This document shows positions 10,801-32,710 of a stretch of DNA of 32,710 bases, piece after piece; position 1 is the first letter of the stretch, and each line of letters begins with the position of its first letter. Source of the stretch: a bacterium (GTDB lineage: Bacteria; UBP6; UBA1177); assembly GCA_016290135.1 (NCBI GenBank), contig JAEESW010000026.1, forward strand, positions 1 to 32,710, read 5' to 3'. Position numbers and translations under genes: made by a program. Below the pieces are notes generated by a model. It ran no database searches, was not told where the DNA came from, and was given only the letters and a program-made list of their open reading frames with translations.

Positions 10801-13800
10801 ACGCAGCGGGTATAGTGAGTGGATATCTGCTGATAACTTTCAACCATTCCTTCACTGAAATCTAAGCACCATGCGTAAATGTCAGGGTCATCTGCGTCAA
10901 TAGAAGAAGACCATATTATGTCGGTTTCACCTAATTTGCTGTAGAGACCGTTTGTATTGTAAGCACAGCTCCTGCATGCATTCGAGATGCATTCATTGTA
11001 CGACAGACAACTCGCGGAATCTGTATCTACGACCGCACATGCACCCCCGGTGATCGTGCCGGCACAGTTTTGAATAAGCGTTCTAAGCTCACTGATCGTA
11101 GGCAGTTTCCAATCGGTGAACCCGCCGTAGGTCGAGCCTTCACAATAGTCAACAGCACCCTGCCAGTTTACTCCGCCCACTCTCGGAGACCATGTGAGTC
11201 CGCTTGCCGGATCGTAGCACGGAGTGCCTGAAGTTGGACTGCATTCAGTCACACATTCTGAGCCGTTCCATGCATATCCGTTTTCGCAGCCGCACTCATA
11301 CTGATTCCATGCTGTCGCAGTGCAGGAGTTATTCGAATGGGGAAGACCGTTGCACGGTAGATAATAACTACACGGGTTGATGCACATCGAACCGTTCCAG
11401 AACATTCCGTCATAGCATTCGCATGCATAGTCATTTGCGCAGCTGCCTGTCGAATGTACAAAAGATTGGGAACATAAGGATGCGGTACATTGTTTTACAC
11501 ACTTTGCTCCGTCCCAGACATATCCTTCGTCACAAGGAGCTTTCGTGCAGCGGGCATCCACACCGCCGACAGCCGTTGTAGAAACAGGGTTTATTCCAGC
11601 CCAATTAAACCAAAGAGTCCATGCAGCCGCACTGTTATCTTCGTATGACGATGACGACCAAAGATAATCACTGTTGCTAAGTATGCTGCTTCCTCCATCA
11701 TAACAAGAACAGGATTCAGAACTCTGGCAACTGTTTTCCAGACAACTCGTTGACGGATCGCCTGTGTCTATGACACTGCACTCTCCGCCTGTTTCTACGT
11801 CCGGGCAGTTTCGGGCAATTGTTCTCAGTTCACTGATATTCGGCAGATGCCAGCTGCCGAGTCCGCTTTCTGAATAGTTGCCGCAATAATCAACAGCAGT
11901 ATACCAAGTTACATCATCCTGTTTTGCAGACCAGATCATACCGCTTGACGGATCAAAACAGGGCGTGCCTGATGACATACTGCATTCAGGCAGGATCGTA
12001 AGATCGTCAATGCAGAATCTCTGATACCTGTATGAATTGTAACGGAATTTCAAAGCGTGTGATCCGGCTGTCAGCGGGAAGCTGTGCATAGTCCAGTCAG
12101 TCCAGCCCGTCCTCTCATTGCCCGAAGATCCATTTGTGAGAAGGATAACCGATTCGCGGTTTGTCAACACCATATCTGAAGGACTCTCTCCGTCAATATA
12201 TAGAGCAAAGACAATGTCGTGATTCGTAGTATCCTGAATACCTCTTATGTAGAAAGCTACGACTCCGTCTTCAGGCATATTTACATTTATTGTCATTTCG
12301 GAGTGATAATTATCAGCATTGTAACACATTGCATAGTTTCCGGTTTTTGCTCCAAAAGCATTCGATCTTACCCAATGATACTCTGCGGAATTGTCAACTG
12401 AAATAATTCCGGAAGAAGTGTCTTCCCATGCATCTTCAAAACTCCAGATCCTTCTTTCCTTACACTGCAGGTTTTCAGACACATATCCGCTTTCGCATTC
12501 GCAGTCAAAAGTATCAGCCGATGTTGCCTTGCATACAGAATGTTCGCCGCAGGTGTTGGAGGCGGTTTCGCACGGGCTTATACATTCAGAGCCGTCCCAG
12601 AAATATCCGTCGGCGCAGTCGCAGCTTCTGTATGCCTGATCCCATCTGTAATGATAGTCTTTGCACTTGAAGTAACAGCCGTCGCCCGCCGCACCGTCCG
12701 ATTTGTAGCTTCCGATCGTTGTCGGCAGCCATCCGTAGCCGTTCCATGTCTGCGTTACAGTGCCGTCGTTCCACCATACTGCGTTTTGAGGAAGAGTCTC
12801 GTTGTCGCAGTCAGCAGATTGTGTTTTTCCGGCACATGCGTTGGAAGAAGAGTTCCATTCGTAGTTTTCGTTGCATCTGAAGTAACAGAATCCGGCATTT
12901 TCGACTGCATTTTCACTGTATCTTGATTCCACGGTATTCGGTTCCCAACCGGTGCCGTTCCATGTCTTTTTTACAGTCGTATTCCACCACGAAGCGAATG
13001 CCGGAAGTCCGGTGCACGGTTCCTGTTTGGTGTTGGCCGCGCAGTTTGTGCCGTCATAAGTGTAGTTGTCTTTGCATTTGAAACGGCATTCGTTCGGGCT
13101 CGGTGTTTCGTTGTAGGTTCCGGTCGTTTCCGGCAGATATTTCTGCGCCGCTTCGTCCCAAGTCTGGGTTATTTTGGTATATACGTTCCATTCCGCATTT
13201 TCGGGAAGCTGACCTGTGCAGTTAGCCTCGTTCATGTCAGGATCGCATTTTCTGTATGTCTGGTTCCAGTTGTGGTGCTCTTTGCAGTGGAAGAAACAGC
13301 CGTTTCCGCCTGCATCGGATTTGTATGTTCCGGTTGTTGACGGATACCAGTCGCCGGAATTGTCGTCCCAGGTCTGCGTTATGGTTGAAACACCGTTCCA
13401 CCACAAAGCGTTTTCCGCAAGGCCTGTGCATGCAATATTTTCTTGTGTTTCAGGATCACAAGTTCTGTCTTCGCTGTTCCAGTTGAAGTGTTCTTTGCAC
13501 TCAAAACAGCAAGTTTCGCTGCACTCGTTTTCGCTGAACACAGGCTCTTCCGAAGGTTCCCATGAATCTCCGTTCCATGTCTGTACGATCCTGTTGTCGA
13601 CCATGTTCCAGATCGATTTTGCCGGTTTGCCGCTGCATTCCGTGAGTGTTTTTCTTGCGACACACTTTTTGTCACCGGCATCCCAATCGTAGTTGGTGTT
13701 GCAAACGAAACGGCACATCGTTGAACTCGGAGTTTCGTTGTACTGTCCTACTTCACTCGGATACCAGTTGTTGCCGTCGTAAGTCTGGCTGATGCCGAAA

Positions 13801-16800
13801 ACAGTGTTCCAGACCGCGTTCTCGGGCAAGCCTTCGCAGGCGATATAACGCGTCGTAGCGAGGAGACATTTGCCGTGATTCCAGTTGAAGCCCGATCTGC
13901 AGCCGCAGGTGAAACTGTAGTCGTCTGCGGTGCAGAGCCCTGTCGAATTTGCCATGCCTTTGCATGCGTTGAAGCTGCACGGATCGGCACATTCGCCGCC
14001 CAGGCACGGCTCGTCATTGCGGACGCAGATTATGTATTTTGTAGAAGTTTTGTCTGTTGCTTCGATATTTCCCGTCTCAAAATCGACTGTCCACGCCTTT
14101 GCAGTTTCGTTGACCGAACTTGTCGAAGTCCAGAAACCTTTTGCCGCGATTCCCGGGAAACCGCTCATTGCGCCGTTTGTCTTCTCGTAATCGATGAGCG
14201 AAGCAAGCTCGTTTCTGTTGGGAAGACGCCAGTCGAATCTGTCATTAGTCGAGACTTCGCCGCAGTAGTTGAGAGCTTCAGCCCATGTTCTGGAAGCAAC
14301 GGCCTGTTTCTGCCACATGAGTCCGCTGACACTGTCTTTGACTGTCTCGGCAGTTGCCGTGAAGCGGCTTTCCGGCGCATCGTATTCATTTGTTCTTACG
14401 CAGAGAACGCTGTTTTGAGTCGTTTTTGCAACACTCACAAGTGCGCCGTTTTCATCAACTCTCCAGGCGTTTCCGCTGTTTCTGTTATCTTCACTTGCCC
14501 AGAAAGCGTGTCCTTTGGCAGTGAATATGCCGCCGAGCGCAGGGCTTGCCGTGCTTGAATCAACTATCGTGAGGAGTTCTGCCGGGCCCGGTATTCTCCA
14601 GAGCGATGACGAGCCGCTTTCATCGTTGAGATGAGAGCAGTAGTCGTTTGCGGAGCTCCAGTTCATAGCCGTGCTTGATGAAGCCTGCCACTCGTAGTGG
14701 GTGAAAGCGTCTTTTATTATTCCGTTTCCGGCTGCAGAAAGCGTGTGGGGAGTGCAGAATCCTGCTTCTGCATACTGAGCATCCTGACCGAAGAAAGCAA
14801 CGCCATAAGCCGGACATTCCGTCTCTGCCGTATTGTCTGAGCAGCTGTCTGCGCCCGTGCAGATGAGGGCAAGCGAAAGCGGAGCTTCAATGCATGCAGA
14901 ACCGTTCCATTTGTAGCCTTTTGCACACGAGAATGAGCATTCTTCTTTCGTTGTACCGAAAGTTGCAGCCTTTGCTGCCGGAAGCCAGTTCGTGCCGTTA
15001 TAAGTTTGAGCGAATGTGCCGTAACCGTCGTTCCAAAGCGCGTTTGCAGGAAGGTTTCCGCAGCTTTCAGTCGTTTTCGAGCAGTTTCCTGCCGTGATGT
15101 AGCCCGAGCAGTCTGCGGCGCACGGAGCGGAGCCCGTCGAATTGCCGAAACCCGCTATTTCCGCACATGCCTTGGATCCGCCGTCGCAGCCTTCACCTTC
15201 ATCCAAAATGCCGTCGCCGCAAAGTGCCGCTTTTCCGCATTCAGACTTGTTGAACGTGCAGGTATTGGGATCGCATGTTGCACTCTTTTCAGGATAGGTC
15301 GAAGCCGGATAGATCGTTCCGCAGGAAACAGGTTCGGAAAGCGTCGGTTCGCACTCTTCGGCCGAATCGACGATGCCGTTTCCGCATGCGTTCTTTGCAA
15401 CTACCGTTATCGTTTTTTCGTTGTCTCCTTCGTAAAGCGTTATCGCCTCGAGGTATCTGTACATATCCTCACCGACTGCCAAAAGCGTGTATCTGCCTGA
15501 ATTCATTTCGATATTTAGTGTTTCGTATTTGCCGGTTCCTTCAACGAATTTCGCAGTCTCGTTTGCAACCAGATCCATGTCGTCGTTGTAGATCTGGACA
15601 TAAACTTTCGACGGATGCTTTACCGTGTTTATGTTTACTTTGAGTTCAAGGTTTGCGTCAGCCGTGCCCGTAAGCTCTTCGTCAAGCCTGATCTCAACGC
15701 TGAATGTCGCACCTGCCGGAACGTTTACGCTTGCGCTCTTTGCATAATATCCGTCAGCATAAGCATCGACCGTGTAAGCCGCCGGAGTGAGGTTTTCAAT
15801 GCTTACTACACCGTTTTCAGAGTAGAAGACCTTGTTCCCGGGGTTGAGGATCACTGTCGGATTTGCGTTTGCGTGAATTGCATGACCCGTTGAATCGTTT
15901 ACGAAGATCTGAATGTTTGCAGGAACTTCCTTCGAATTTACGCCGTCACTGTCGTTGTTTACGAAGAACTCGTAGGTCTTCTGCGTCGTGTAGGTCTTTC
16001 CTGAGATCTTCGAGTTCGCGACTATCGTCATTTTGCCCGTGATATTGCCGAGAGAATCGACATTTTCGCTTCCGAGAAGGGTCTTGAGAGCAGTTTCACC
16101 CTGAGAAAGGTTTCCCGGAGCGAGAACTATCGTTTTTTCTTTCTTTTCCCCTCTCGGCTTGTAGTAAGTACGCGTATTTTCCTGAACTTTCTCGAATTCT
16201 TTTCCTTCGATACTGATGATAACTTTTTCGACATCTGCGCTTCCAGCCGCGACTTTGAGAGAGATCTGATCGGTAAGTGCGCTCAGTTTGGTGAGATATG
16301 GAACTGTCGCCATTTCAACGCCGTCAAGAACGGCAACTGTGTGAGCCGAAGCGTCGAAAGTATCAACTATTGAAACTGCGTTCATGTTGCCGTTGATGCC
16401 GTCAAAAACGAGGTATGCAGTCTCAAGGAGAGCATCGTGAAGTTCTTCGACATCGCTTCCGTTGTAGAAGATCGTTCCAGCATATTTCAGTGCAAGGTAG
16501 AAAGTCCTGAAAAGATCGAGCTTTTCATCGTTGGAAAGGCGGCTGTTCATCGGCATTAAGTATCTGGTGAATATTGCGTTCGCCTCTGCGACGCTGACTT
16601 CGGTGCCTCCAAGCGTAACGTGGCCGTTTTCGTTGAGAGTGTAAACTTTATTGCAGTTGGCAGCTTCCGTATCGGGATCCAGCCATGCGCAGACGAGCTG
16701 GTCGGGAGTGAGGACCGTTTCGACGTTGCTGAAATCGGGCCCTTTCGATGATGTCGTGATGTAGTTCGCAAAGATCATCATCTCTTTCTTCGTCGCTGCA

Positions 16801-18935
16801 TATTCAGTGTTGCCTGCAAGTGCATTCCTTGCTTTGGCAGTGTAGTCTTCCGGCGCGTTTCCGCTGTAGGTGAGCGGGATCAGCGAGGAGTCTGTCAAAT
16901 CTGCGAAAGTGGTGCTTCTGTTGTATGAAGTCGTTGCGGTATAAAGTGCCGCGATCGCGCTTCTCAGCTCAAGACCGTTCTTAACCGCTGCAACTGCGCC
17001 GCTTTCACGTTTTGCCTTCATGCGGTTATAGAACTCAGAAACAAAGAAAAGGTTCTCAATAAGATTCAAATTCCTCTGGAAGCCCACAGGCTTATTGATA
17101 AGTTCGTAAAGGTCGTTTCCGAGATCTGCGAACTTCTCACAGGTAAGATACGGAAGGAGAGAGCTTTCAGGTTTGTATGTCTGGAATCCGAGTTTGATGA
17201 ACTCAATCGGGGAATATCCGCGGTAGAATGAGCCGTCGCACCATCTTGCAACAAGATTGTCCACAGAAACGGGAAGATTTGCTGCTTCGACCGTGAATGT
17301 CGAATAGTGGTTCGTCTGCGAGATCATGACGCTCGAGCTCGTTCCCATCATGATCGGATCGCCTGCAGCGCTTGCCATGATCGGATCTCCCGCAGCCGAA
17401 GCCATGATCGGGTCTCCTGCAGCAGCAGACATTATCGGATCTCCTGCTGCGCTCGTCATGATCGGATCTCCTGCAGCACTTATCATGATCGGATCTCCGC
17501 CTCCACTTTTTGCGATCTGCATGATAGGATCGCCTCCGGCAGAGAACATTATCGGATCACCGCCTGCAGCAAGCATGATCGGGTCGCCGCCTACTGACTG
17601 AAGGACATCGCTTGAGCCGTTGGAATTTGCTCTTTTTGCTGAAAGCATGATCGGATCACCGCCGAAAACGGTGCCCAATTCGTGGATGAAATACATCGAA
17701 TCGCCTTCGAAAACGGCGCCTTCAGGCCTGAATCTGAGCCTCGAGACTTGAGGACCACCAGCAGTCAAGACTTCGTAACTTATTGAATTTATTTTGCTTC
17801 CGTTCTTTTTGACAGCTGTTCCCTTAGGAATTACGCCGTAGATACCGTCGTCTATCCTGAACGAAATGTCCTTCGACGTATCGCTTACATAGACCGTGCC
17901 TCCGTTTTTCTTCTGCAAAAAGAGGACTGTTGCAGAATCCTGCGAAAGAGTGTCACTGCCCGAAACAAGTTTTGCTCTTGCCGTGTATTCGCCCGGAAAG
18001 GAAGTAGTGAATTTGTAAGACGCAGCTTCGGCTGTTTTGTTCTGAACTGTCCAGCTGATTTTGAAATTCGGAGCAACTTTCGTGCTGCCGCCTTCAACGC
18101 TGAAATTTGCGTTGCTGTCAGCCGTTTCGCCGATAACTATCTCAGTTTTGTTTACAGAAACTTTGAAGCCGTTGAAGAGTTTCGCAAATTCGGGGGATTC
18201 CTTCTTCGCGTCTTCGGCGATCTTTTCAGAAAGGGTCTCCGCATCGCTTGAACCGATGAAGGAGGAGAGGAGTTTGAGTCCGTCATTTATTCCCGAAAGC
18301 CCGGAATAGTCGAGTTCACCCAGCCATTCTCCTGTTCCGATTTTTGTGTAAGTTCTTATTTTTGTTTCGCTTTTGCGCATATCAGCACAAGTCTTGTCGA
18401 GAAGATACGCCGCAGTCGTGATCTCGGAAATATTTGCGACATGGTCGCTCATTCCTTTGAAGCAGCTTGCTAGGTCACCAGCTTTTACGCAGTAGGTCTT
18501 AGCTGCCGAAATGTCAGCCTTGAATGAATATTTGCCTTTTGCATCGGTATCCGCCTCTGCGATCTTATCTGCTCCGCCGCATTCGTAAAGGGCGACTGAC
18601 GTTGCGCTTCCAGCCTGAACGGCACCGCTGATCCTGCGGCTTTCTGTCGCTTCAGGATCTACAGGAGCTTCATCCGGTGTTTCATCGGGAGTTTCGGGAT
18701 CGTCGTGATCTTCCGGTTCTTCCGGATTCTCATCAGGTTTTTCTGTATTGTCCGGTTCTTCCGGTTCTTGAGGATCGTCTGTATCCTTGTCCGATATTTC
18801 TACATCCGAAATGTCGGCATCGTCCGAATCACCGTCGGGATAGTCGTAAACGGTCTCCTTTTTGCCGCCGCCGCAGCTCATCATGAAAATCAGACTCAGA
18901 ATTGCCGGAAATACCCAAATCCTTCTCATTCCCAT
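10794..18935 (-). CDS. giant modular lipoprotein with GDPIM repeats, Cys-rich, EGF-like and DUF1566 domains
   Basis: 2713 residues. The signal peptide ends in a lipobox (LSLIFMMS|C, Cys21). An Asp/Glu/Pro linker (about 30-98) probably crosses the envelope or surface layer. Then: a carboxypeptidase-regulatory-like module (103-152); beta-rich segments; ten [AG]GDPIM repeats (425-531); a helical stretch (560-870); Ig/PEGA-like modules (about 900-1180); two Myxococcus-type disulfide repeats (CGNGIVDSAEECE 1184, CGDGILDEGEGCD 1239); seven CxGLPxNAxWN...C Cys-rich repeats (1292-2105). Two DUF1566 domains (1405-1515, 1530-1640) and an EGF-like module interrupt these repeats. A MAM/jelly-roll-like domain (2161-2318), DUF1566 (2325-2464), EGF-like modules (2468-2565) and a last DUF1566 (2572-2713) follow. 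GGAGG stands five bases before the ATG. A surface adhesin or structural role is inference; many modules are shared with the protein at 3-2567. Confidence 0.88.
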   Translation of the reverse strand: MGMRRIWVFPAILSLIFMMSCGGGKKETVYDYPDGDSDDADISDVEISDKDTDDPQEPEEPDNTEKPDENPEEPEDHDDPETPDETPDEAPVDPEATESRRISGAVQAGSATSVALYECGGADKIAEADTDAKGKYSFKADISAAKTYCVKAGDLASCFKGMSDHVANISEITTAAYLLDKTCADMRKSETKIRTYTKIGTGEWLGELDYSGLSGINDGLKLLSSFIGSSDAETLSEKIAEDAKKESPEFAKLFNGFKVSVNKTEIVIGETADSNANFSVEGGSTKVAPNFKISWTVQNKTAEAASYKFTTSFPGEYTARAKLVSGSDTLSQDSATVLFLQKKNGGTVYVSDTSKDISFRIDDGIYGVIPKGTAVKKNGSKINSISYEVLTAGGPQVSRLRFRPEGAVFEGDSMYFIHELGTVFGGDPIMLSAKRANSNGSSDVLQSVGGDPIMLAAGGDPIMFSAGGDPIMQIAKSGGGDPIMISAAGDPIMTSAAGDPIMSAAAGDPIMASAAGDPIMASAAGDPIMMGTSSSVMISQTNHYSTFTVEAANLPVSVDNLVARWCDGSFYRGYSPIEFIKLGFQTYKPESSLLPYLTCEKFADLGNDLYELINKPVGFQRNLNLIENLFFVSEFYNRMKAKRESGAVAAVKNGLELRSAIAALYTATTSYNRSTTFADLTDSSLIPLTYSGNAPEDYTAKARNALAGNTEYAATKKEMMIFANYITTSSKGPDFSNVETVLTPDQLVCAWLDPDTEAANCNKVYTLNENGHVTLGGTEVSVAEANAIFTRYLMPMNSRLSNDEKLDLFRTFYLALKYAGTIFYNGSDVEELHDALLETAYLVFDGINGNMNAVSIVDTFDASAHTVAVLDGVEMATVPYLTKLSALTDQISLKVAAGSADVEKVIISIEGKEFEKVQENTRTYYKPRGEKKEKTIVLAPGNLSQGETALKTLLGSENVDSLGNITGKMTIVANSKISGKTYTTQKTYEFFVNNDSDGVNSKEVPANIQIFVNDSTGHAIHANANPTVILNPGNKVFYSENGVVSIENLTPAAYTVDAYADGYYAKSASVNVPAGATFSVEIRLDEELTGTADANLELKVNINTVKHPSKVYVQIYNDDMDLVANETAKFVEGTGKYETLNIEMNSGRYTLLAVGEDMYRYLEAITLYEGDNEKTITVVAKNACGNGIVDSAEECEPTLSEPVSCGTIYPASTYPEKSATCDPNTCTFNKSECGKAALCGDGILDEGEGCDGGSKACAEIAGFGNSTGSAPCAADCSGYITAGNCSKTTESCGNLPANALWNDGYGTFAQTYNGTNWLPAAKAATFGTTKEECSFSCAKGYKWNGSACIEAPLSLALICTGADSCSDNTAETECPAYGVAFFGQDAQYAEAGFCTPHTLSAAGNGIIKDAFTHYEWQASSSTAMNWSSANDYCSHLNDESGSSSLWRIPGPAELLTIVDSSTASPALGGIFTAKGHAFWASEDNRNSGNAWRVDENGALVSVAKTTQNSVLCVRTNEYDAPESRFTATAETVKDSVSGLMWQKQAVASRTWAEALNYCGEVSTNDRFDWRLPNRNELASLIDYEKTNGAMSGFPGIAAKGFWTSTSSVNETAKAWTVDFETGNIEATDKTSTKYIICVRNDEPCLGGECADPCSFNACKGMANSTGLCTADDYSFTCGCRSGFNWNHGKCLLATTRYIACEGLPENAVWNTVFGISQTYDGNNWYPSEVGQYNETPSSTMCRFVCNTNYDWDAGDKKCVARKTLTECSGKPAKSIWNMVDNRIVQTWNGDSWEPSEEPVFSENECSETCCFECKEHFNWNSEDRTCDPETQENIACTGLAENALWWNGVSTITQTWDDNSGDWYPSTTGTYKSDAGGNGCFFHCKEHHNWNQTYRKCDPDMNEANCTGQLPENAEWNVYTKITQTWDEAAQKYLPETTGTYNETPSPNECRFKCKDNYTYDGTNCAANTKQEPCTGLPAFASWWNTTVKKTWNGTGWEPNTVESRYSENAVENAGFCYFRCNENYEWNSSSNACAGKTQSADCDNETLPQNAVWWNDGTVTQTWNGYGWLPTTIGSYKSDGAAGDGCYFKCKDYHYRWDQAYRSCDCADGYFWDGSECISPCETASNTCGEHSVCKATSADTFDCECESGYVSENLQCKERRIWSFEDAWEDTSSGIISVDNSAEYHWVRSNAFGAKTGNYAMCYNADNYHSEMTINVNMPEDGVVAFYIRGIQDTTNHDIVFALYIDGESPSDMVLTNRESVILLTNGSSGNERTGWTDWTMHSFPLTAGSHALKFRYNSYRYQRFCIDDLTILPECSMSSGTPCFDPSSGMIWSAKQDDVTWYTAVDYCGNYSESGLGSWHLPNISELRTIARNCPDVETGGECSVIDTGDPSTSCLENSCQSSESCSCYDGGSSILSNSDYLWSSSSYEDNSAAAWTLWFNWAGINPVSTTAVGGVDARCTKAPCDEGYVWDGAKCVKQCTASLCSQSFVHSTGSCANDYACECYDGMFWNGSMCINPCSYYLPCNGLPHSNNSCTATAWNQYECGCENGYAWNGSECVTECSPTSGTPCYDPASGLTWSPRVGGVNWQGAVDYCEGSTYGGFTDWKLPTISELRTLIQNCAGTITGGACAVVDTDSASCLSYNECISNACRSCAYNTNGLYSKLGETDIIWSSSIDADDPDIYAWCLDFSEGMVESYQQISTHYTRCVR
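17343..17663 (-). repeat. ten GDPIM repeats inside the giant lipoprotein gene
   Basis: Residues 425-531 contain ten copies of [AG]GDPIM. Copies 5-10 follow each other at exactly nine residues (27 bases), with consensus AGDPIMxSA. Copies 1-4 are spaced irregularly and have GG before DPIM. At DNA level each unit carries the complement of catgatcggatc, so the tract is a homogenised tandem array. I do not recognise the motif as a named family. Asp-Pro-Ile turns every nine residues could give a small beta-solenoid or a protein- or ion-binding strip; that is speculation. Confidence 0.85.
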
Positions 18936-24898: not shown

Positions 24899-25150
24899 TC
24901 ACTCGAAAAGCTCGTTTTTGTGTCTACTTTTTGGGGATAGAGCCACTTCTTTCAGGCGGTAGTATGAGTCATACTGATAAGCGGTCCTGCGGTTTTCCTC
25001 GTTTTCCTGCTTCCCGATGAGGTGAAGCCCTTTGGAATAGGTGTATTCATAATCTGCGACTGTCGGTGCGTTCAGCGATGTGAAATCTTCTTTTCTGCGG
25101 CTGACTTTGCGCCAGTCGTCTTTATGCTTAATTCCATTAATTCTAAACAT
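24899..25150 (-). pseudogene. decayed Rhs/YD-repeat fragment
   Basis: An 83-codon open frame. Its second half (ADYEYTYSKGLHLIGK...YQYDSYYRLKEV) matches Rhs core residues about 72-112 of the gene at 27048-28997 (MSYNYSRGWHLIEK...YTYDSYYRLKEV). It then ends in unrelated sequence. The first 26 codons show no Rhs pattern, and the putative ATG overlaps the preceding gene by eight bases without a good ribosome site. This is an internal piece of an Rhs gene at the distal edge of the array, not a functional protein. Confidence 0.7.
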
Positions 25151-25445
25151 TCAACTTGAATAAAATAGCAGTCAATATGTCACTTACAGCATTTAGCACA
25201 CCGGCATATACCCACGACAAAAAGAATGCAGCAATTATGGCAACTTTTCTGTTTTCGAGTTCTTTTACAAAAAAGCTTGCCATAAAAAATACTTCAAAAA
25301 TCATAAAAATAGCACCTAAAAGCATATAGAAAATAAAATTCTGTGTGCTTAAACTAGTTGCTTCAATCAATACCGAAACAATCAAGAAACAATCCCAAGA
25401 TATTGCCAATAAAGTCAGATATATTTTAAAGATATCATTTTTCAT
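25143..25445 (-). CDS. small membrane protein, similar to the C-terminal half of the 26509-27060 protein
   Basis: 100 residues with three hydrophobic stretches: IFKIYLTLLAISWDCFLIVSV, split by position about 5-25, then about 38-60 and 68-90. FEVFFMASFFVKELENRK matches FEICFIASFFVKGLENKR of the membrane protein at 26509-27060. The previous gene (25457-25798) matches that protein's N-terminal half, so this pair may be a split version of one immunity protein. It starts 11 bases after its neighbour with AGAGGA as ribosome site. The DNA is AT-rich compared with the housekeeping genes. Function by position: candidate immunity component of an Rhs toxin. Confidence 0.6.
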   Translation of the reverse strand: MKNDIFKIYLTLLAISWDCFLIVSVLIEATSLSTQNFIFYMLLGAIFMIFEVFFMASFFVKELENRKVAIIAAFFLSWVYAGVLNAVSDILTAILFKLNV

Positions 25446-25456
25446 AACATCCTCTT

Positions 25457-25798
25457 CTATACTGTATAACCGAAAATGTTAAAGACAAAAAGCACCAGAA
25501 AAAGCCGAAACAAGAACAATAAAATAATTGTGTTTCTGAATTTTTTTATATGTGGTGCAAAAAAGCTGGAAATTACGTAACTTATGTGAACTATTAAAAA
25601 ACATGGAATACCTATTAAAAATGAAAAACCTCCGATATCTGACAATAATTTAATATTGCCCATTTTTGATCCACAACCCCAAATAAACAATATTCCCCAA
25701 AAAACCAACAAATAAGTGAATTCAGAAGCTAAAATAAAAGCATAAAACAATTTATTACTATTTATTTTTTTCATTATTCCATTGATTATCTTAACCAT
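25457..25798 (-). CDS. membrane protein, candidate Rhs immunity protein (N-terminal half homologue)
   Basis: 113 residues with about three hydrophobic helices. The start chosen is the ATG at 25796-25798 (MVKIINGIMKK). GGAGG at 25806-25810 lies seven bases upstream, inside the codons of the Rhs tail gene, whose last 13 bases this gene overlaps. The frame continues upstream only because it runs antiparallel in another frame of that tail. MVKII, the central helices and LRxTxILLFLFR...LxFVF resemble the first half of the protein at 26509-27060. It ends where that protein continues, and the missing half is supplied by the next gene. Acts presumably in the inner membrane; the toxin it would neutralise is no longer present next to it. 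Confidence 0.65.
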   Translation of the reverse strand: MVKIINGIMKKINSNKLFYAFILASEFTYLLVFWGILFIWGCGSKMGNIKLLSDIGGFSFLIGIPCFLIVHISYVISSFFAPHIKKFRNTIILLFLFRLFLVLFVFNIFGYTV

Positions 25799-26031
25799 GG
25801 ATCTACCTCCGGCTGAACAAACCCGCTTTGCTGCCACTTTTCGTAAGTATTGGCCCATGTTCTAGATGTAGGAAGAGCTAATGGATTTCTGACAAGAATC
25901 GGCTTCGAACCATCATATCCGAGAATCAAAATATTTTTTAGAGGGTCCTTGTTTACATAGTACGGATTTTTATAAATCATTATCGCTCCGTTTGGTCCGG
26001 TGCTGGTGTAATTACTTTTTCTCTTTTGCAT
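25786..26031 (-). pseudogene. orphan Rhs C-terminal tail (no core, no toxin domain)
   Basis: An 81-codon frame. From STGPNGAI onwards (about 26004 down to 25786) it matches the last 72 residues of the Rhs protein at 27048-28997: NPYYVNKDPLK, RNP, YEKWQQSGFVQPEVDPWLR. The first nine codons overlap the end of the secreted-protein gene by 20 bases in another frame and have no Rhs similarity. The piece has lost its Rhs core and cargo but keeps an intact frame and the embedded ribosome site of the next gene. It may persist as a recombination target and translation-initiation segment rather than as a working protein. Confidence 0.7.
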
Positions 26032-26464
26032 TACGTTGGCTTTTTTGTTCTAAAAGTATTTTCTGACATCCTTCAGCATTGAAAAACTTATCCCCGGTTC
26101 CTGTCAACGATATCAACTGCAATCCCTTTGCAGAACTTGGATAATCTTTAAGTTCTGAATATGAAAAAACATATTTTATCCCAACTCTTTCAATCAGAAT
26201 TTTATTGCCGTCCACTTTGTAATCGACTGTTGATGAATAGGTTACTTCTCCAGCGTTGTCACCATCTTCCGACCAGAATTCATGGAAAACGAACTCAGCT
26301 TTTTTGTTGCTTAGAAAAATGATTTTTGTGGAAAGTTCGCCTTCACAGATACTTTGAAAAGTTTTTCCTGACAAATTAAAATTGTGTTGCTTTTCTGTCT
26401 TTTCTTTTCCAAAAACAGAAAACGAAATAGAAACAGCAATCATAAAAATAAAAAATGCTTTCAT
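26012..26464 (-). CDS. small exported protein, candidate Rhs immunity protein
   Basis: 150 residues. A signal peptide (KAFFIFMIAVSISFSVFG) probably cleaves after Gly19. The mature part is beta-rich (STKIIFLSNKKAEFVFHEFW, EVTYSSTVDYKVDGNKILIERVGIKYVFSYS), with two Cys (in SICEG and EGCQK) that could pair in the periplasm; the C-terminus is Lys-rich. I do not recognise a family; a small lipocalin-like barrel is possible. GAGGTAG directly before the ATG follows a short remnant reading NIDPYW[Y]stop, like an Rhs tail. Position after a tail remnant suggests it is a periplasmic immunity protein. Confidence 0.6.
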   Translation of the reverse strand: MKAFFIFMIAVSISFSVFGKEKTEKQHNFNLSGKTFQSICEGELSTKIIFLSNKKAEFVFHEFWSEDGDNAGEVTYSSTVDYKVDGNKILIERVGIKYVFSYSELKDYPSSAKGLQLISLTGTGDKFFNAEGCQKILLEQKSQRNAKEKK

Positions 26465-26473
26465 AGCTACCTC

Positions 26474-26509
26474 TTAATACCAATAAGGATCGATATTTCC
26501 GCGGTAATT
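26474..26509 (-). pseudogene. vestige of an Rhs tail end
   Basis: Between the membrane-protein stop (26509-26511) and the exported-protein ATG (26462-26464), one frame reads NYRGNIDPYWY then TAA at 26474-26476. It resembles the tail ending QPNVDPYWQ-stop at 30927. The ribosome site GAGGTAG follows at once. The match is only about six residues, so it is suggestive, supported mainly by its position. Confidence 0.4.
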
Positions 26510-27060
26510 TAGTAAGTCATAAATCCTAAACTCTGTAAAATGTAAAAACATACTAATGATAACAAAAATACGACAATCATAATTTTTCTCTTGTTTTCTA
26601 GCCCCTTAACAAAAAAGCTCGCTATAAAACATATTTCAAAAATTAGATACGGAATAATTTCAATGCTCCCTGAAATTAAGTGCTTAAAAAGCAAAAGGTT
26701 TTTGTCCGGTTGCTTTCCCGATCTATAGATGGCATCTAAAACAATATTACCACCCAACCAATTAACAAAAACAAAAGAGAGCAGCAGTATTCTGAATAGA
26801 AAAAGCAATATTGCTGTTTTTCTTAAATATTTTAATTCCTCCATCTTAAAGCTCACAAATATGTAGTATATGTGAAAAGCCAAAAAATATATGAAGGGAG
26901 CTACTACTATAAACAAAAAAGTAGTTTCTGAATTTAATATGGACAATTTATAATACAAATGGAACTCGACCCACAATCCAAAAAATATGAACAAATAAAA
27001 GATTTCAGAAATCAAAACCAGATGGTGCCATAGTTTATCACTATCGATTATCTTAGCCAT
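26509..27060 (-). CDS. multi-pass membrane protein, candidate immunity protein of the adjacent Rhs toxin
   Basis: 183 residues with about five hydrophobic helices (roughly 10-30, 42-68, 82-102, 125-150 and 160-180). The start is the ATG at 27058-27060 (MAKIIDSDKLW). GGAGGTGG (27065-27072) lies within the Rhs tail codons, and the gene overlaps the last 13 bases of that Rhs frame, including its stop. This arrangement is identical to the one at 25786-25798, and the product is homologous to the two-gene set 25457-25798 plus 25143-25445. AT-rich composition. It directly follows an Rhs toxin gene, so an immunity function in the inner membrane is the simplest reading; no recognised domain supports it. 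Confidence 0.7.
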   Translation of the reverse strand: MAKIIDSDKLWHHLVLISEIFYLFIFFGLWVEFHLYYKLSILNSETTFLFIVVAPFIYFLAFHIYYIFVSFKMEELKYLRKTAILLFLFRILLLSFVFVNWLGGNIVLDAIYRSGKQPDKNLLLFKHLISGSIEIIPYLIFEICFIASFFVKGLENKRKIMIVVFLLSLVCFYILQSLGFMTY

Positions 27061-28997
27061 GGATCCACCTCCGGCTGAATAAACCCGCTTTGCTGCCATT
27101 TTTCATAAGTTGTGGAGTCATAACCGTAACTTGCCCCAGGAACAAAAGGATTGCGGTAAATCATGGGCTTACCAGAACCGTTATTGCCATCAAACAAGAT
27201 AGTTTTCAATGGATCTTTGTTCACATAATATGGATTGCGGTAAATTTTAATTGCGCCGTTGGGTCCTGTGCTGGTATCAATGAAAACAGGCGGTTGTTCA
27301 CTTTCTCCACGCTTCAGCATTTTCGCCAAAATGTTATTCATCAAAATTTTTTGAATGGCGTTTGAAGGGTCTTTGTCTGGATCCGACGGCATATTTTCCC
27401 CTGTTGCCCCAGAACAATTTCCAGATACACACTGGCAACTACCATAACTGCACTCAACATCAGCTTCTGGGTATTTGCTTCTTATAGGATTTGTTCCAAA
27501 ACTATCGTCATCTTCTACTGCCTTGGATTCGGGATTTGTTCCATCACCATTGTTAGGAATTTCCCTGTCGGAATCAGCTTTATCAGGTTCTTCATCAGGA
27601 GTATTTCCTGCGATTTTATTGAATAATTTTTTTGCTGTATCAAAATCATAAATCCCTTTTTCAAACATAGAAAACATCTTTTTGGAAAAACCACGACAAT
27701 TAGTGCCTGATGAAGTAAAAAGGATAGCATATTTCCCTTGAGATCTAATTAATCTATTTAATATATTTCTTGCCATTTCGTCTTGCTGAGGAGAAGTCTT
27801 AAGTTTAATTTTTACTTTTCCAGCTTTGTTGGAATCGTCTGAATAAACAACGCCTCTTACATTCAATCCGAAGATTGCGCTACTCATATTTGGCAATCTG
27901 TATAGTATACCATCATTTTCAAATATAGCTCCAAAACTCCAAGATTTATACCCGTTAATATTTCCTGGATCAGTAACAGATATTTTCTGATGCATGAAAA
28001 AATCATCGTCTGTACCATCTTCAATCCAAATATCCAACCCACTCGGATCACTCGCCTCAATGACCATTCCGGCAACGTAGGCGAAGCCATTACCTAAGTT
28101 GTTGGCATCTCCCCAGATTCCGATTGGATCTTGGTTGATGAAGCGGTGCATGTCGATGTGGTAATAACGGTTTCGCATCCAGTAAAGGCCTGTTTCGGAC
28201 TCGTAGAGCGAGCCGCCCCAGATGAAATTGTGCAGGTTCGTTGCATAGCAGGTCTGGTTGCTGCAGTTTTTCGGCGAGAACTGGGAATCAAGGATTTCAA
28301 AATCACCGTAAACACGGTATCTGTAACGCTCTAAAACATTGCCGTTTGCATCGGTGAGGGCTGTCACATTTCCGCGTTCATCAGTCAGGAAATAATAAAG
28401 TGTGGAAGTGTTGTTCGCGGTGACTTCGATTGCGATATGTCTGTCTGTGCCGGAATCGATGATGTTTGTGTAATCGTCCGAATTTGTTGATATTTCAACT
28501 ATATCCCAATCGTCGTAAGTGTATCTTTCAGTTGTGCTTCCGACGGTTTTCGTTATGCGGCGGTTGAATGCGTCGTAGGTGTAAGTTGCAATTGTTTGAT
28601 TACTGCCGTCCTGATAAAAATTGTCGGTTCTTGCCGCCGTGTTATTTGCAAAGTCGTATTTGACTTCTTTCAGGCGGTAGTATGAATCATAGGTGTATTT
28701 ATCCGATGTGTTCTTTATGCCGTCTGCTTTCTCAATCAGGTGCCAGCCGCGTGAATAGTTGTAGCTCATGTCATAAATATCGGCATTTGCATTGCTTACC
28801 GTATGATTGTCGAGCATGTTCCAGTTGTTGTAACTGAATGTCTCGATCAGGTTCTGACCTTTTGTAATGGCGGAGAGGACTCCGTTTGCGCGGCTGTATG
28901 ATGCGATTTCGGAATTGTTGTATTCGATCAAATCAAGGTCGTTTCCGGTAGCTGTCTTGCGGAGTGTCTTGCCATTTTCAATTTGTTTTTCATGCAT
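27048..28997 (-). CDS. N-terminally truncated Rhs protein with putative papain-like cargo and conserved tail
   Basis: 649 residues. Residues 1-316 are YD/Rhs core, ending in the canonical GLYWMRNRYYHIDMHRFINQDPIG...DPSGL. There is no signal or N-terminal shell region, and compared with the neighbour gene about 73 codons are missing in frame at residue about 130. The variable domain (about 320-460) has FMHQKISV (His336), SWSFG and TNCRGFSKKMF (Cys434). A His before a helix-capping Cys is reminiscent of permuted papain-like (NlpC/P60, LRAT-like) enzymes; this is a weak call. A Ser/Asp-rich linker with four Cys follows, then the conserved tail (578-649). The frame starts 18 bases after the WG-protein stop without a clear ribosome site, so it looks like an orphan toxin tip. 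Confidence 0.75.
   Translation of the reverse strand: MHEKQIENGKTLRKTATGNDLDLIEYNNSEIASYSRANGVLSAITKGQNLIETFSYNNWNMLDNHTVSNANADIYDMSYNYSRGWHLIEKADGIKNTSDKYTYDSYYRLKEVKYDFANNTAARTDNFYQDGSNQTIATYTYDAFNRRITKTVGSTTERYTYDDWDIVEISTNSDDYTNIIDSGTDRHIAIEVTANNTSTLYYFLTDERGNVTALTDANGNVLERYRYRVYGDFEILDSQFSPKNCSNQTCYATNLHNFIWGGSLYESETGLYWMRNRYYHIDMHRFINQDPIGIWGDANNLGNGFAYVAGMVIEASDPSGLDIWIEDGTDDDFFMHQKISVTDPGNINGYKSWSFGAIFENDGILYRLPNMSSAIFGLNVRGVVYSDDSNKAGKVKIKLKTSPQQDEMARNILNRLIRSQGKYAILFTSSGTNCRGFSKKMFSMFEKGIYDFDTAKKLFNKIAGNTPDEEPDKADSDREIPNNGDGTNPESKAVEDDDSFGTNPIRSKYPEADVECSYGSCQCVSGNCSGATGENMPSDPDKDPSNAIQKILMNNILAKMLKRGESEQPPVFIDTSTGPNGAIKIYRNPYYVNKDPLKTILFDGNNGSGKPMIYRNPFVPGASYGYDSTTYEKWQQSGFIQPEVDPWLR
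27065..27072 (-). promoter_or_regulatory. ribosome binding site embedded in Rhs tail codons
   Basis: GGAGGTGG is read in the Rhs frame as part of the codons for PEVD. It positions ribosomes for the membrane-protein ATG at 27058-27060, seven bases after GGAGG. The same device is at 25806-25810 (GGAGG) for the ATG at 25796-25798. Confidence 0.75.
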
Positions 28998-29015
28998 AAA
29001 ATTTACCAGTTTGAA

Positions 29016-30917
29016 TCACGAAATAAACATAAAGATGCTTCCGGTATAAACCAGTTCCCCGTCCTTCATCTCAAGAAACAGAAGCCAGCCTGTTCCGCAC
29101 AAAGGTCCGCAATACTCTTCCCTGTAAACCATTATGGTGTCTGATTCAGGGTCATAGAGAGGGATCGAAAATTTAATGATTCGGTGTCCTGAAACTTTAT
29201 TCAGACAGCTCTCCATGTCATATTCTTCGCTTCCGTTTTCTCCATAACAGATGCTGTCGCTTACAATACCGTCTTTTTCACAGGAATATTTTTCCAAACC
29301 TGAAACGGCTATTGATTTTCTGTTTGTTTCAATGAATTTTTCAACAAATTTCTCAGCATCGTTCTTCTGCATTTTCTCCGCTATACCCGATACATCGTGC
29401 TTTTCGATACGGCGGAATGTGTTTTCAGAACTTTTGGAAGCCACCAGATAACATGATTCTTTATCGTGAAAATGAGCATAGTGTTCAATAATTTTTTGCA
29501 GAAGTTCATCGGCTCCCATTTTTAAAAGAACAGGATTCGGTTCGGCTTTCCCGAACATTTTTTCGATCCTTCTCCTCGGCAGCCAGTAATCTTCCGCGAG
29601 GATTTCCTTCTCTTTCCATTCATAGCAGACAGGCTCGACATAGCGCAGTTCGTCAAGAGATTTCCAGTCAGGATCTATCTCAAAAATCTTTTTTCCGCTC
29701 CTGTCTATCACGAAGTAATGTTCTTCCTTCTTAACCCATGTCCTGCCGAAATAAAACGCGCTTACGCTATCGTATTCTGCCGGAATAATTTCCTTCCCGT
29801 TTTCGTCAAGGAATCCCCATTTTCCCTTGTATTTGAATGAAACTGATTTTTCTTCAGGGCACATACTTTTTCTTACATTTTCATATTTGCTATCTTCATC
29901 CTCTGTGATTTCGATGCTATGCGGAGTTTCCATCTTTTCGTTGCAGTTCTCATCCATTTCTGTAAAAAAAGAGGGTTTGACTTTATCGCAGATTTTTTTG
30001 CCGGTTGAAGCGTCGAAAACTACGAAGTGATTTTCTTTCTTGTCTTTTTTCTTATAGTCAAGATAGAAACTGTTGTTTCCGATGGCATTTCCGTTGCTGT
30101 TAAAAATATAGGTAATCTCTTTTGCCGTATCCTGCATAAGAAAAATTTTATTGTTTTCAGCGGTTACCAAATAGATAGACGAACCTTTTTTTAAAACAGC
30201 TTTCCCTTTGGTCATTCCGAAAAATCCATCATATTCCTCTTCTGAAACCTTTGCCTTTTTAAGATCGACAACTCTGAATTTTCCGTTTTTCGAAACAACC
30301 ATCGTCCCGAGACTGTGACCATCTATTCCGTCGAATTGAGGAGGAAAAACAAAAAGCCCGTTTTTATCTATTACAAACCACAAGGTCTCCTTTTTCAGAG
30401 CCGTCATACCCTCATCCAAACGAATGATTCCTTTAAATTCAGGTTTAGCGATAAAATCCCCTTTTTCATTTATAACTCCCCAGAAACCGTCTTTTCTGAC
30501 CTCCGCCGTTCCATTAGAAAATCTGTCAACAGTATCGAATTGCGGCTTTGCAACATAATTCAAATTTTTATCAACGAATCCCCAGTTGCCGCTTTGAATA
30601 TCCGAAACTGCAAGCAGTCCTTCCGAATAAGAACGATCAATGTCTCGGAATTTGACATCTTTTATCTTTTTTCCAGTTTCATTGAGAAAAACAAACTCTT
30701 TTTGGGTCGTAAAAGCTGGAATCAGACCGTCTTTTATCTTGTCTATGTAGAGATATTCAGCCGGAATCACCTCTTTTCCGTTTTCATCAAGAAGACCGAA
30801 AAGTCCGTTTTTATCCGAAAAAATATAGCGTGCTTTTGTTTTTGCAGAATCCGGCACAGATGAATGATTTGAACAGGCTGCAAAGAATAGAATGGTTAAA
30901 AATATTAGTTTTTTCAT
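29016..30917 (-). CDS. WG-repeat lipoprotein between two Rhs genes, candidate immunity protein
   Basis: 633 residues. The signal peptide has a lipobox (TILFFAA|C, Cys15). WG/KWG repeats fill about residues 30-260 and 360-420: GLFGLLDENGKEVIPAEY, NWGFVDKNLNYVAKPQFD, FWGVINEKGDFIAKPEF, KWGFLDENGKEIIPAEYD. The last 200 residues are different: a helical part, then Cys-containing strands. WG repeats build beta-propeller-like binding surfaces and occur in many secreted proteins of unknown role. It begins nine bases after the Rhs stop with TAGGAG as ribosome site, the position where Rhs immunity genes stand. It may protect against the HExxH peptidase cargo from the periplasmic side. It is much larger than most known immunity proteins, so an accessory role is possible. 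Confidence 0.75.
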   Translation of the reverse strand: MKKLIFLTILFFAACSNHSSVPDSAKTKARYIFSDKNGLFGLLDENGKEVIPAEYLYIDKIKDGLIPAFTTQKEFVFLNETGKKIKDVKFRDIDRSYSEGLLAVSDIQSGNWGFVDKNLNYVAKPQFDTVDRFSNGTAEVRKDGFWGVINEKGDFIAKPEFKGIIRLDEGMTALKKETLWFVIDKNGLFVFPPQFDGIDGHSLGTMVVSKNGKFRVVDLKKAKVSEEEYDGFFGMTKGKAVLKKGSSIYLVTAENNKIFLMQDTAKEITYIFNSNGNAIGNNSFYLDYKKKDKKENHFVVFDASTGKKICDKVKPSFFTEMDENCNEKMETPHSIEITEDEDSKYENVRKSMCPEEKSVSFKYKGKWGFLDENGKEIIPAEYDSVSAFYFGRTWVKKEEHYFVIDRSGKKIFEIDPDWKSLDELRYVEPVCYEWKEKEILAEDYWLPRRRIEKMFGKAEPNPVLLKMGADELLQKIIEHYAHFHDKESCYLVASKSSENTFRRIEKHDVSGIAEKMQKNDAEKFVEKFIETNRKSIAVSGLEKYSCEKDGIVSDSICYGENGSEEYDMESCLNKVSGHRIIKFSIPLYDPESDTIMVYREEYCGPLCGTGWLLFLEMKDGELVYTGSIFMFIS

Positions 30918-30926
30918 TTCAATCTC

Positions 30927-32710
30927 CTATTGCCAATACGGGTCTACATTTGGCTGTATAAAACCAGATTGCTGCCATTTTTCATGGGTCGTTGAATCAT
31001 ATCCGTATTTAGCTCCAGGTGCGAACGGATTCCTGACAAATCCATTTGTACCATCGGAATTCTGTTTATTCCAAAACAGTTCTTTCAACGGATCTTTGCC
31101 TTTGTAGTATGGATTGAAAATAAAAACTTTTCTGCCATTGTTGTCATATTTGATAATTGGACCAACTTCATCCATAATTTCGAGAAAGCTCTTTTTTTCT
31201 CGTATTTCAAGAATTTTTTTGATGAACTGATTTGCAAAATATGTCTGAATTTTGTCTTCTGAAGAATCTGGATCTCCAGGATATTGTTCTCCTCCTTTCT
31301 TCTTTTTTTCCTCTTCTTCTTTTGCCTTGTTTTGGTTCTTTACAGCATTCTTTTCTGCTTCTTTAACTGCTTTCTCAAGTTCTTCTATCAGTTTTTCCAG
31401 CTCATTTATCACTTCTTTCAGCATTTTAATTTTGTCTGCATCTTTTTCTTTTTTTAAATATTGTTGTATTTGCTCCAAAAAAGCTTTTAACTCATCAATA
31501 TTTGGAGCATTAATTATAAATTTATCATAGATAAAATGAGTCAGTTCGTGAGCCAACTTCTCAGCCAACGAAAGGGCCTCTTTACCACCGATAACCACAA
31601 GGTAATCTTGAGACATCTCTTTTTCATCATATTTATACGTAAAACTACCTACATTTTTATCATCATCACATTCAATATGCACCTTGTTGTTTCTATCTAT
31701 TTCTGCTATATCCCATAATTTTGCAACTACTGAATTGTCATTTACAACCTTCATAACATCATCCATACATGATTCTTCTCTAAAGGCTGTTACTAGCCCC
31801 GTCGGATCACTTGCCTCAATGACCATTCCTGCGACATAAGCGAAGCCGTTGCCGAGGTTGTTGGCATCTCCCCATATACCGATGGGGTCTTGATTGATAA
31901 AGCGGTGCATATCAATGTGGTAGTAACGGTTGCGCATCCAATAAAGACCTGTTTCTGGCTCATAGAGGGAGCCGCCCCAGAGGAAGTTGTGTAGGTTTGT
32001 TGCATAGCAGGTCTGGTTGTTGCAGTTTTTCGGCGAGAATTGGGAATCGAGGACCTCAAAATCGCCGTAAACACGGTATCTGTAACGCTCTAAAACATTG
32101 CCGTTCGCATCTGTGAGGGCTGTCACATTTCCGCGCTCGTCGGTGAGGAAATAATAAATTGTGGAAGTGTTGTTTGCGGTGACTTCGATTGCGATATGTC
32201 TGTCTGTGCCGGAATCGATGATGTTTGTGTAATCGTCCGAATTTGTTGATATTTCAACGATGTTCCAATCGTCATAGGAGTATCTTTCTGTCGTGCTGCC
32301 GACTGTTTTTGTAATGCGGCGGTTGAATGCGTCGTAGGTGTAAGTTGCAATCGTGTTTTGACTTCCGTCCTTGACTTCAATGAGGCGGTTCAGGTCGTCG
32401 TAGATATAGGTTTTATCGTCTGTTGTGCCGCTTCTGTCCTCGGAAATCATGTTGTTCCTTTCATCGTATTCATATGCGGATTCTGTGTTGCTTCCGATTT
32501 TTTTGTTTCTTAGTCTGTTGAGTTTGTCCACTCCCCATGCATAGGTTATGCCGTTTTCGGTGCTCTGTTCGATGTTGTGGACTCCATCCTGATAGTAGCT
32601 GTCGGTTCGTGCAGCTGTATTGTTGGTAAAATCGTATTTGACTTCCTTCAGGCGGTAATATGAATCATAAGCATATTTATCGGAAGTGTTCCTGATGCCG
32701 TCAGCTTTTT
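30927..32710 (-). CDS. Rhs/YD-repeat protein with putative HExxH metallopeptidase cargo and conserved tail, 5' end outside window
   Basis: The frame stays open to base 32710 (upstream codons read KADGIRNTSDKYAYDSYYRLKEVKYDF and on), so the protein continues beyond the edge; the GTG at 32529-32531 is internal. The YD-repeat core ends in GLYWMRNRYYHIDMHRFINQDPIG and DPTGL at about 31800. The variable part follows: LAEKLAHELTHFIYDKF (31536-31550 encodes HELTH, a zincin HExxH motif), then a Glu/Lys coiled coil of about 65 residues, a GGEQYPGDPDSSED linker and a helical segment. The conserved tail (NPYYKGKDPLK...HEKWQQSGFIQPNVDPYWQ) closes it. The Rhs shell would encapsulate the cargo until delivery. 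A zinc peptidase toxin is a reasonable inference; the third metal ligand is not obvious. Confidence 0.82.
   Translation of the reverse strand, partial: KADGIRNTSDKYAYDSYYRLKEVKYDFTNNTAARTDSYYQDGVHNIEQSTENGITYAWGVDKLNRLRNKKIGSNTESAYEYDERNNMISEDRSGTTDDKTYIYDDLNRLIEVKDGSQNTIATYTYDAFNRRITKTVGSTTERYSYDDWNIVEISTNSDDYTNIIDSGTDRHIAIEVTANNTSTIYYFLTDERGNVTALTDANGNVLERYRYRVYGDFEVLDSQFSPKNCNNQTCYATNLHNFLWGGSLYEPETGLYWMRNRYYHIDMHRFINQDPIGIWGDANNLGNGFAYVAGMVIEASDPTGLVTAFREESCMDDVMKVVNDNSVVAKLWDIAEIDRNNKVHIECDDDKNVGSFTYKYDEKEMSQDYLVVIGGKEALSLAEKLAHELTHFIYDKFIINAPNIDELKAFLEQIQQYLKKEKDADKIKMLKEVINELEKLIEELEKAVKEAEKNAVKNQNKAKEEEEKKKKGGEQYPGDPDSSEDKIQTYFANQFIKKILEIREKKSFLEIMDEVGPIIKYDNNGRKVFIFNPYYKGKDPLKELFWNKQNSDGTNGFVRNPFAPGAKYGYDSTTHEKWQQSGFIQPNVDPYWQ

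Follow-up and report, generated by a model that had tools for sequence, protein, structure and literature searches.

The distal part of contig JAEESW010000026.1 (assembly GCA_016290135.1), from a rumen bacterium of the UBP6/UBA1177 group, encodes an array of Rhs toxin modules and toxin-less immunity genes, in which each putative immunity unit is preceded by a copy or a remnant of one conserved domain, here called the tail, that closes the Rhs proteins. The window, that is, the whole stretch of 32,710 nucleotides (nt) that was analysed, is contig C47 of a host genome of 2.47 Mb that is 98% complete; the array occupies positions 24899-32708 of the minus strand, beyond rpoN, and is cut off by the end of the contig. 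The tail-linked immunity array is a real, genus-wide feature, and we consider it probable, with good confidence, that it represents a contact- or envelope-type polymorphic toxin locus with displaced immunity genes that have been reshuffled through the shared tail. The architecture, the pairing of toxins with immunity proteins, the origin of the orphans and the reshuffling have been derived by sequence comparison. The data set for the reshuffling comprises 15 genomes of the genus and a few from other genera, all or most of which are metagenome-assembled genomes (MAGs), the congeners coming from the ruminant gut. Loci, genomes and clusters of downstream genes are denoted here by L, G and IMM numbers, respectively.

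All minus-strand elements listed in the original prediction are present, and each of the three tail stops (30927, 27048 and 25786), as well as a tail vestige (26474-26509), is followed by a gene. Rhs protein 1 (30930-32708, with the stop codon extending to 30927; RHS_repeat of Pfam, 4.3e-9; TIGR03696 of NCBIfam, 2.4e-11) is cut by the contig end, so that its N-terminus is absent from the window. Its YD repeats and Rhs-associated core extend down to ~31794 and are followed by a variable, putative toxin region including a linker (31140-31793) with a HELTHF metallopeptidase-like motif, and by the post-toxin C-terminal domain (30930-31325, tail proper 30930-31139; profile A1, E 9.8e-64), which ends with FIQPNVDPYWQ and shares 60% identity with the tail of the second module. 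Starting 9 nt past the tail stop, a WG-repeat lipoprotein (29016-30917; WG_beta_rep of Pfam, 2.7e-36) is the putative immunity protein for Rhs 1. The N-terminally truncated Rhs module 2 (27048-28997, 649 amino acids (aa); TIGR03696, 2.3e-11) consists of the core down to ~28035, a variable putative toxin with a linker (27261-28034) containing the Cys/His motif TNCRGFS, and the post-toxin domain (27051-27425, tail proper 27051-27260), ending with FIQPEVDPWLR. Its putative immunity protein (26509-27060) is a membrane protein of 183 aa with five transmembrane segments, 79% identical to the gene behind a homologous toxin in L073. The vestige NYRGNIDPYWY, a remnant of 36 nt (10-11 residues) of the NRGNIDPYWY tail type, precedes by 9 nt the gene for an exported protein of 150 aa (26012-26464; IMM9), which is an orphan putative immunity protein with homologues in L063 and L065. 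A toxin-less orphan tail comes next, as an open reading frame (ORF) of 81 aa from its ATG (25786-26031, tail proper 25789-25992; 71% identity, E 2.3e-29), which starts at the end of the preceding gene and ends with FVQPEVDPWLR. It is followed by two membrane proteins of 113 aa (25457-25798) and 100 aa (25143-25445) with homologues in L061, which would form an orphan two-gene immunity unit (25143-25798) corresponding to the single fused 183-aa gene at 26509-27060. An Rhs core fragment (24899-25150, recognisable core 24944-25126), which matches several Rhs cores with 93% identity over 59 aa, is the relic of a further displaced module. By gene content, the window array is thus two modules with putative toxins and two toxin-less putative immunity units.

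From the tail stop to the next start, the spacing in the window is +9, -13, +9 and -13 nt. The predicted spacing of 0-12 bases therefore holds for the WG lipoprotein and the exported protein; it fails for the two membrane genes, both of which begin within the tail, at the ATG of ..GATCCATGG.., with a 13-nt overlap. Likewise, the followers are all envelope proteins, as anticipated, but they are not all different: the two tail-overlapping membrane genes are related (38% identity, 99 aa), so that the four followers belong to three families.

The Rhs proteins show the YD repeats and the core ending DPxG[LV] (EASDPTGL, EASDPSGL) followed by a variable region that are expected of Rhs polymorphic toxins. 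The toxin is not the extreme C-terminus, as it is in such toxins, since the conserved domain comes after it. Across the loci of the genus, the tail closes every complete Rhs C-terminus examined and is common to all toxin types. The strictly conserved region comprises ~70 aa, or ~110-130 aa together with a preceding helix-like segment (PSDP...D..Q....IL.K.L..), and contains the near-invariant motifs NP(Y/F)Y..KDP(L/M)K, NPF, T.EK, G and, close to the C-terminal end, VDP. A 76-aa tail query detects 12 copies on six contigs of the host genome, compared with only four Rhs cores, which indicates that most copies are orphans. The same query hits 13 of 14 genus mates and gives weak matches in further genera of the order. 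When a profile built on the longer C-terminal domain is used, 19 of the 28 phylum genomes searched are matched, the fourth family of the phylum giving none. In the other families the tails end with EVDPYDK, DIDPYFY or NIDPYEW, and an exported or WG-type protein lies close behind there too. No match to the domain has been obtained in Pfam, NCBIfam, PHROGs, PDB sequences, plasmids or viral contigs, and in the searches made here it is found only within this order. The ratio of nonsynonymous to synonymous substitution rates (dN/dS) is ~0.13 for attached and ~0.17 for orphan tails, and the value for the attached tails suggests that the domain is probably functional; its position after the toxin suggests a role in the release, export or plugging of the Rhs shell. 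The possibility that the tail itself is the toxin was rejected, as it is common to many unrelated upstream domains and downstream families. In seven loci (L022, L059, L064, L067, L069, L070 and L071), in Rhs and in orphan tails, the last ~17 tail residues are duplicated (..NVDPYSNLQQGGFIQTNVDPYWY), and this small tandem duplication falls exactly on the joint between the tail and the immunity gene.

The origin of the orphans can be traced to complete modules elsewhere. The 150-aa orphan of the window has its counterparts in L063 (89% identity) and L065 (87%), where the gene comes immediately after a complete Rhs C-terminus with an M15-like toxin. The complete Rhs gene at L063:5113-13224 ends with NRGNIDPYWY, a stop, GAGG and ATG, with the IMM9 family next at +9 nt, as behind the vestige; from this ending and the identical spacing, the vestige at 26474 is the end of a lost Rhs gene. 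The orphan membrane pair shares 88% and 80% identity with the pair behind the complete Rhs of L061 (second gene L061:12543-12833), whose tail (..NILILGYDGSKP..) resembles the orphan tail of the window. Displaced 3' fragments in the window therefore match attached modules of L061, L063 and L065, as in the displacement described by Jackson et al. (PMC2935791); the displaced piece consists of core plus toxin tip in Rhs module 2 and not in the tail-only orphans. Generally, the 5' ends of the orphan tails are ragged, ranging from the full domain down to ~14 residues, while the 3' end has almost always been preserved. Over its 633 aa the WG protein does not differ at all (100% identity) from the product encoded behind the corresponding Rhs in L057 of genome G007, and the toxin regions are 99% identical; the sequences thus indicate that an entire toxin/immunity module was transferred very recently. 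Between the window (29016-32708) and L057, which come from two species-level genomes, 393 bp of DNA around the tail are identical.

The role of the tail as a recombination joint is revealed by the genes on its two sides. A given upstream immunity gene often joins the tail at the same point in different species, but the gene after the tail varies. The junction between the end of a WG gene and the tail (..GATATTGGTGA joined to GAAAATTTG.., or ..GGATATTGGTGA joined to GAAAATTTGT..) is present in L026, L058, L071 and L072, where IMM3, IMM4, IMM16 and IMM1 come next. The IMM9-tail junction of the window (..GAGAAAAAGTAA joined to TTACACCAGCACCGGACCAAACGGAGC..) also occurs in L063 and L065 with few substitutions, and it leads to IMM3 in the window, IMM12 in L063 and IMM2 in L065. 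Independently of these junctions, the tails themselves are mosaic: orphans sharing only the upstream gene have a 5'-half identity of 0.73 versus a background of 0.59, and 0.71 versus 0.70 in the 3' half, and orphans sharing only the downstream gene have identities of 0.60 in the 5' half and 0.75 in the 3' half. Label shuffles on the 5'-minus-3' difference gave p=0.0002 for the upstream and p=0.015 for the downstream gene, values that are approximate because the shuffles treat sequences as independent; the evidence from the junctions does not rely on these values. In attached modules, L061 and L065 of two species share ~90% identity in the Rhs core, 37-51% in the toxin and 98-100% in ~300 bp of linker and tail, directly beyond which the immunity genes are unrelated. 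The ragged tail ends and the crossovers within the tail point to homologous recombination rather than to site-specific, integron-type exchange. The cassette model of the original prediction, in which conserved tails separate exchangeable immunity genes, is thus placed on firmer ground than was available to it, as the same immunity-to-tail junctions are joined to different next genes across species. In L055, L061, L065 and L067, the last IMM2 codons (GDQTEQ and the stop) are tail DNA read out of frame, so that these immunity genes take their stop codon from the tail that comes after them.

It could be argued that nothing beyond C-terminal displacement is needed, the orphan tails being passive scraps of illegitimate deletion with no part in rearrangement. 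The ragged 5' ends combined with nearly always intact 3' ends would be expected in that case, broken frames do occur in some orphans (L026, L071), and the retention of immunity genes after displacement has been documented elsewhere (PMC5361080, PMC2935791). However, independent deletions cannot yield one upstream junction with four different immunity families, and they account neither for the tails with 5'/3' mosaicism nor for the ~300 bp of nearly identical tail DNA that join unrelated toxins to unrelated immunity genes, which makes displacement alone unlikely.

Alternatively, the orphan tail ORFs could be genes in their own right, encoding small peptides that are coupled to the preceding stop and aid or regulate the immunity proteins. 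Many of them indeed start with an ATG or GTG that overlaps or adjoins the previous stop (-4, -1 or +1 nt), the whole 68-aa tail is in frame in 24 of the 40 orphans with an intact 3' end, and the orphan dN/dS of about 0.17 is low. Yet other orphan tails are cut to 10-30 residues or broken and the next immunity gene persists, and a low dN/dS is also expected from exchange with Rhs-attached copies. Coupling through an upstream ATG was rejected as proof of such genes, since an in-frame ATG lies within 20 nt in 20/37 cases versus 18/37 in one control frame, with no clear excess. An independent function of the orphan tails therefore appears quite doubtful.

The original prediction expected small variable genes behind tail hits in related genomes; variable envelope genes are indeed found behind all 65 scored tails, both behind complete Rhs genes and behind toxin-less orphans. 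The scored set consists of tails with an intact gene behind them, the others being contig ends, 3'-truncated tails or broken genes. The distance from the tail to the gene is +9 nt in 30 cases, -13 in 9, -10 in 4 and -7 in 3, and the remaining genes lie at +8 to +16 nt, save one at +30. Such spacing and overlaps suggest co-transcription and translational coupling of the array genes. All 65 downstream products are exported, lipoprotein or membrane proteins: an N-terminal signal or membrane segment was predicted by a simple hydropathy/lipobox rule in 62, and the other three have an evident signal sequence. They form about 17 clusters, including WG-repeat lipoproteins, exported proteins of the DUF4424/NADase_transloc type, ankyrin membrane proteins or lipoproteins, ~165-aa single-span proteins and small multi-span protein pairs, among others; IMM14 follows a frameshifted tail end and does not count as a partner. 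At L055, immunity genes from no fewer than six families, a dozen in all, are linked by tails, which corresponds to a heterogeneous polyimmunity locus (at least four unrelated genes in tandem on one strand). Islands of tails and immunity genes with no substantial Rhs core nearby were observed at L023 (G000:C41) and L058 (G007:C2), and these are immunity-only loci at a distance from any toxin gene.

The variable Rhs regions go with particular downstream families. WG or ankyrin lipoproteins accompany regions that resemble HExxH metallopeptidases, small membrane pairs accompany H/C-type domains similar to PPPDE peptidases (E 0.0032, below the cut-off), exported proteins accompany DUF5675 regions (6.5e-10, above the cut-off), and the 150-aa exported protein accompanies M15-peptidase-like regions (Peptidase_M15_4, 0.014, below the cut-off); some variable regions are hydrophobic and possibly pore-forming. 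At the level of motifs, the enzymatic assignments are putative. Pairs of similar toxins have the same downstream cluster in 21 of 28 cases, a count reached in 0 of 20,000 shuffles (maximum 12), and in the seven exceptions the clusters are related to each other (both WG or both small membrane) or are the two exported families found after DUF5675-like domains. As similar toxins are accompanied by the same downstream family, the downstream genes are likely the immunity partners of the toxins. That they are instead accessory or export factors of each Rhs is very improbable. Their diversity and occasional large size (WG 633 aa, ankyrin 548 aa), together with the absence of matches to listed Imm families, would be compatible with such factors, but one downstream family per toxin family and the occurrence of downstream genes without any toxin would not, the envelope location fits envelope-type toxins, and immunity proteins with a signal peptide/lipobox or with ankyrin repeats are known (PMC3482391). 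Fusion of unrelated cassettes at repeated tails by short-read assemblers is extremely improbable: although MAGs make up all or most of the sources and several arrays break off at contig ends, as does the window Rhs, the exact stretches common to two tails within one genome (median 10-19 bp, maximum 75 bp) are too short for routine chimeras, and the same junctions turn up in assemblies that are independent of each other, among them the roughly 20-contig genome G007 with its 18 tails.

Several observations weigh against a displaced-immunity locus reshuffled through its tail. The reshuffling was seen between genomes of the data set, and none was observed within one strain. Some orphan tails have stayed in frame, and with a dN/dS close to the Rhs-attached value (0.17 vs 0.13) they may be something other than remnants. 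Several toxin assignments rely on motifs or on sub-threshold Pfam matches, only DUF5675 being above the cut-off. Modelling of the conserved domain with AlphaFold2 (15 sequences) reached a predicted local distance difference test score (pLDDT) of 44 and produced no usable model. The toxin of Rhs 2 (6 sequences; pLDDT 35) likewise gave no usable model.

In full-length relatives, the complete Rhs genes encode a signal peptide at the start, then EGF-like and leucine-rich repeat (LRR) segments and RHS matches, and no PAAR was found in the N-termini of these relatives. TssB/VipA had no match in the host genome, in a search that detected its positive control, and together with the signal peptide this suggests delivery by a route other than the standard type VI secretion system (T6SS). 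The displaced-immunity locus could then work and evolve as follows. A Sec-exported Rhs (signal peptide, EGF-like, LRR, Rhs shell) would bear near its C-terminus a variable antibacterial domain, probably directed at the envelope of the attacked cell, followed by the conserved domain of ~70-130 residues, and the next gene, translationally coupled to this domain, would encode the matching envelope-located immunity protein. A new module would arrive by homologous recombination through the Rhs core and move the older one downstream. Loss of the redundant toxin would be tolerated and loss of immunity would not, while relatives still use that toxin, so protection from the toxins of other strains is the presumed selective reason. 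The immunity gene would be kept with the part of the tail bearing its ribosome-binding site or start codon: deletions would go no further than the end of the tail, since the tail stop and the ribosome-binding site overlap (TAGGAGG) or the tail contains the start codon. As the tail is common to all modules, every immunity gene would be flanked by tail DNA, and ordinary homologous crossovers in tail copies could insert, delete and reorder immunity genes to generate a heterogeneous array. Tentatively, and with a little less than even confidence, we further propose that the post-toxin domain is a functional part of Rhs (in release, export or plugging) and at the same time a recombination joint used throughout the genus, that immunity genes circulate between species as tail-bounded cassettes in an integron-like system that would be integrase-free (no integrase search was made), and that toxins are exchanged as internal cassettes between core and tail.

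The left part of the window contains housekeeping genes (purD, parA-like, radC, purL, rpoN and others, with translations inspected by eye). A fixed chromosomal home of the array beside rpoN was rejected, since besides the window only G006 has a tail with an immunity gene at rpoN. There, in another species than that of the window, a tail scrap (L163, G006:C46, ~4450-4542) and an IMM1-family gene adjoin rpoN, hinting at an old insertion site shared with the window array. The product of 10794-18935 (minus strand) is a predicted lipoprotein of 2713 aa in which near-identical GGDPIM repeats form a run, accompanied by many EGF-like segments and several DUF1566-like DWRLP blocks; a smaller related protein is encoded at 66-2567 on the plus strand.

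Displacement and the retention of immunity genes are known from other bacteria. Jackson et al. (2009) described complete rhs genes followed by strings of displaced 3' fragments and small downstream genes (PMC2935791); in both systems truncated modules retain some core. The orphans of Jackson et al., however, are core fragments with a toxin tip, the toxin being last, whereas in the present arrays the toxin is followed by a conserved domain, a tail and an immunity gene without toxin make up many of the orphans, and the shared sequence is 3' of the toxin. In the T6SS of Vibrio cholerae, sequential effector displacement produces arrays of immunity genes (Kirchberger et al. 2017, PMC5361080), and there too effectors are lost and immunity genes are retained and pushed downstream into heterogeneous arrays; the model for V. 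cholerae is homology-facilitated illegitimate recombination, whereas here the T6SS marker TssB has no match and the same conserved tail before each immunity gene provides the homology joint. Heterogeneous polyimmunity loci (Zhang et al. 2012, PMC3482391) likewise consist of unrelated tandem immunity genes on one strand that differ among close relatives and are probably co-transcribed, but in the present case tail copies link the genes, an Rhs usually adjoins, several loci occur per genome, and all genes are envelope-directed. The MafB-CT/mafI cassettes of Neisseria (Jamet et al. 2015, PMC4287609) follow a secreted toxin gene as alternative C-terminal cassettes, each with an immunity gene; Maf cassettes retain the toxin C-terminus and have the joint 5' of the toxin domain, in contrast to the conserved 3' tail found here. 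The esaG/tipC array of tandem immunity genes (Garrett et al. 2022, PMC9484751) similarly expands, loses members and becomes mosaic by homologous recombination, which takes place at short conserved blocks, but those blocks lie inside paralogous immunity genes; in the present arrays the block comes from the toxin gene and separates immunity genes that are unrelated. The array had been presented as non-standard; this applies to the separation of immunity genes by tails and not to displaced Rhs tips and orphan immunity arrays, which were already established (PMC2935791, PMC5361080, PMC3482391), so that the array is a variant and no new kind of system. What is new is the conserved post-toxin domain and its role as a joint, no description of which was found in the literature searched, although this is not proof of absence.

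For a phylum with hardly any described biology, the tail-linked arrays offer a sequence mechanism by which unrelated orphan immunity arrays may grow and be reshuffled without an integrase, although no integrase search was made. They also contradict the working assumption that an Rhs protein ends with its toxin, and tools that take everything after DPxG as toxin would include the tail domain. Conversely, the tail profile can serve as a bait, the gene after the tail being a candidate immunity gene and the Rhs region before it a candidate envelope-directed antibacterial toxin, and about a dozen candidate toxin/immunity pairs have been obtained here.

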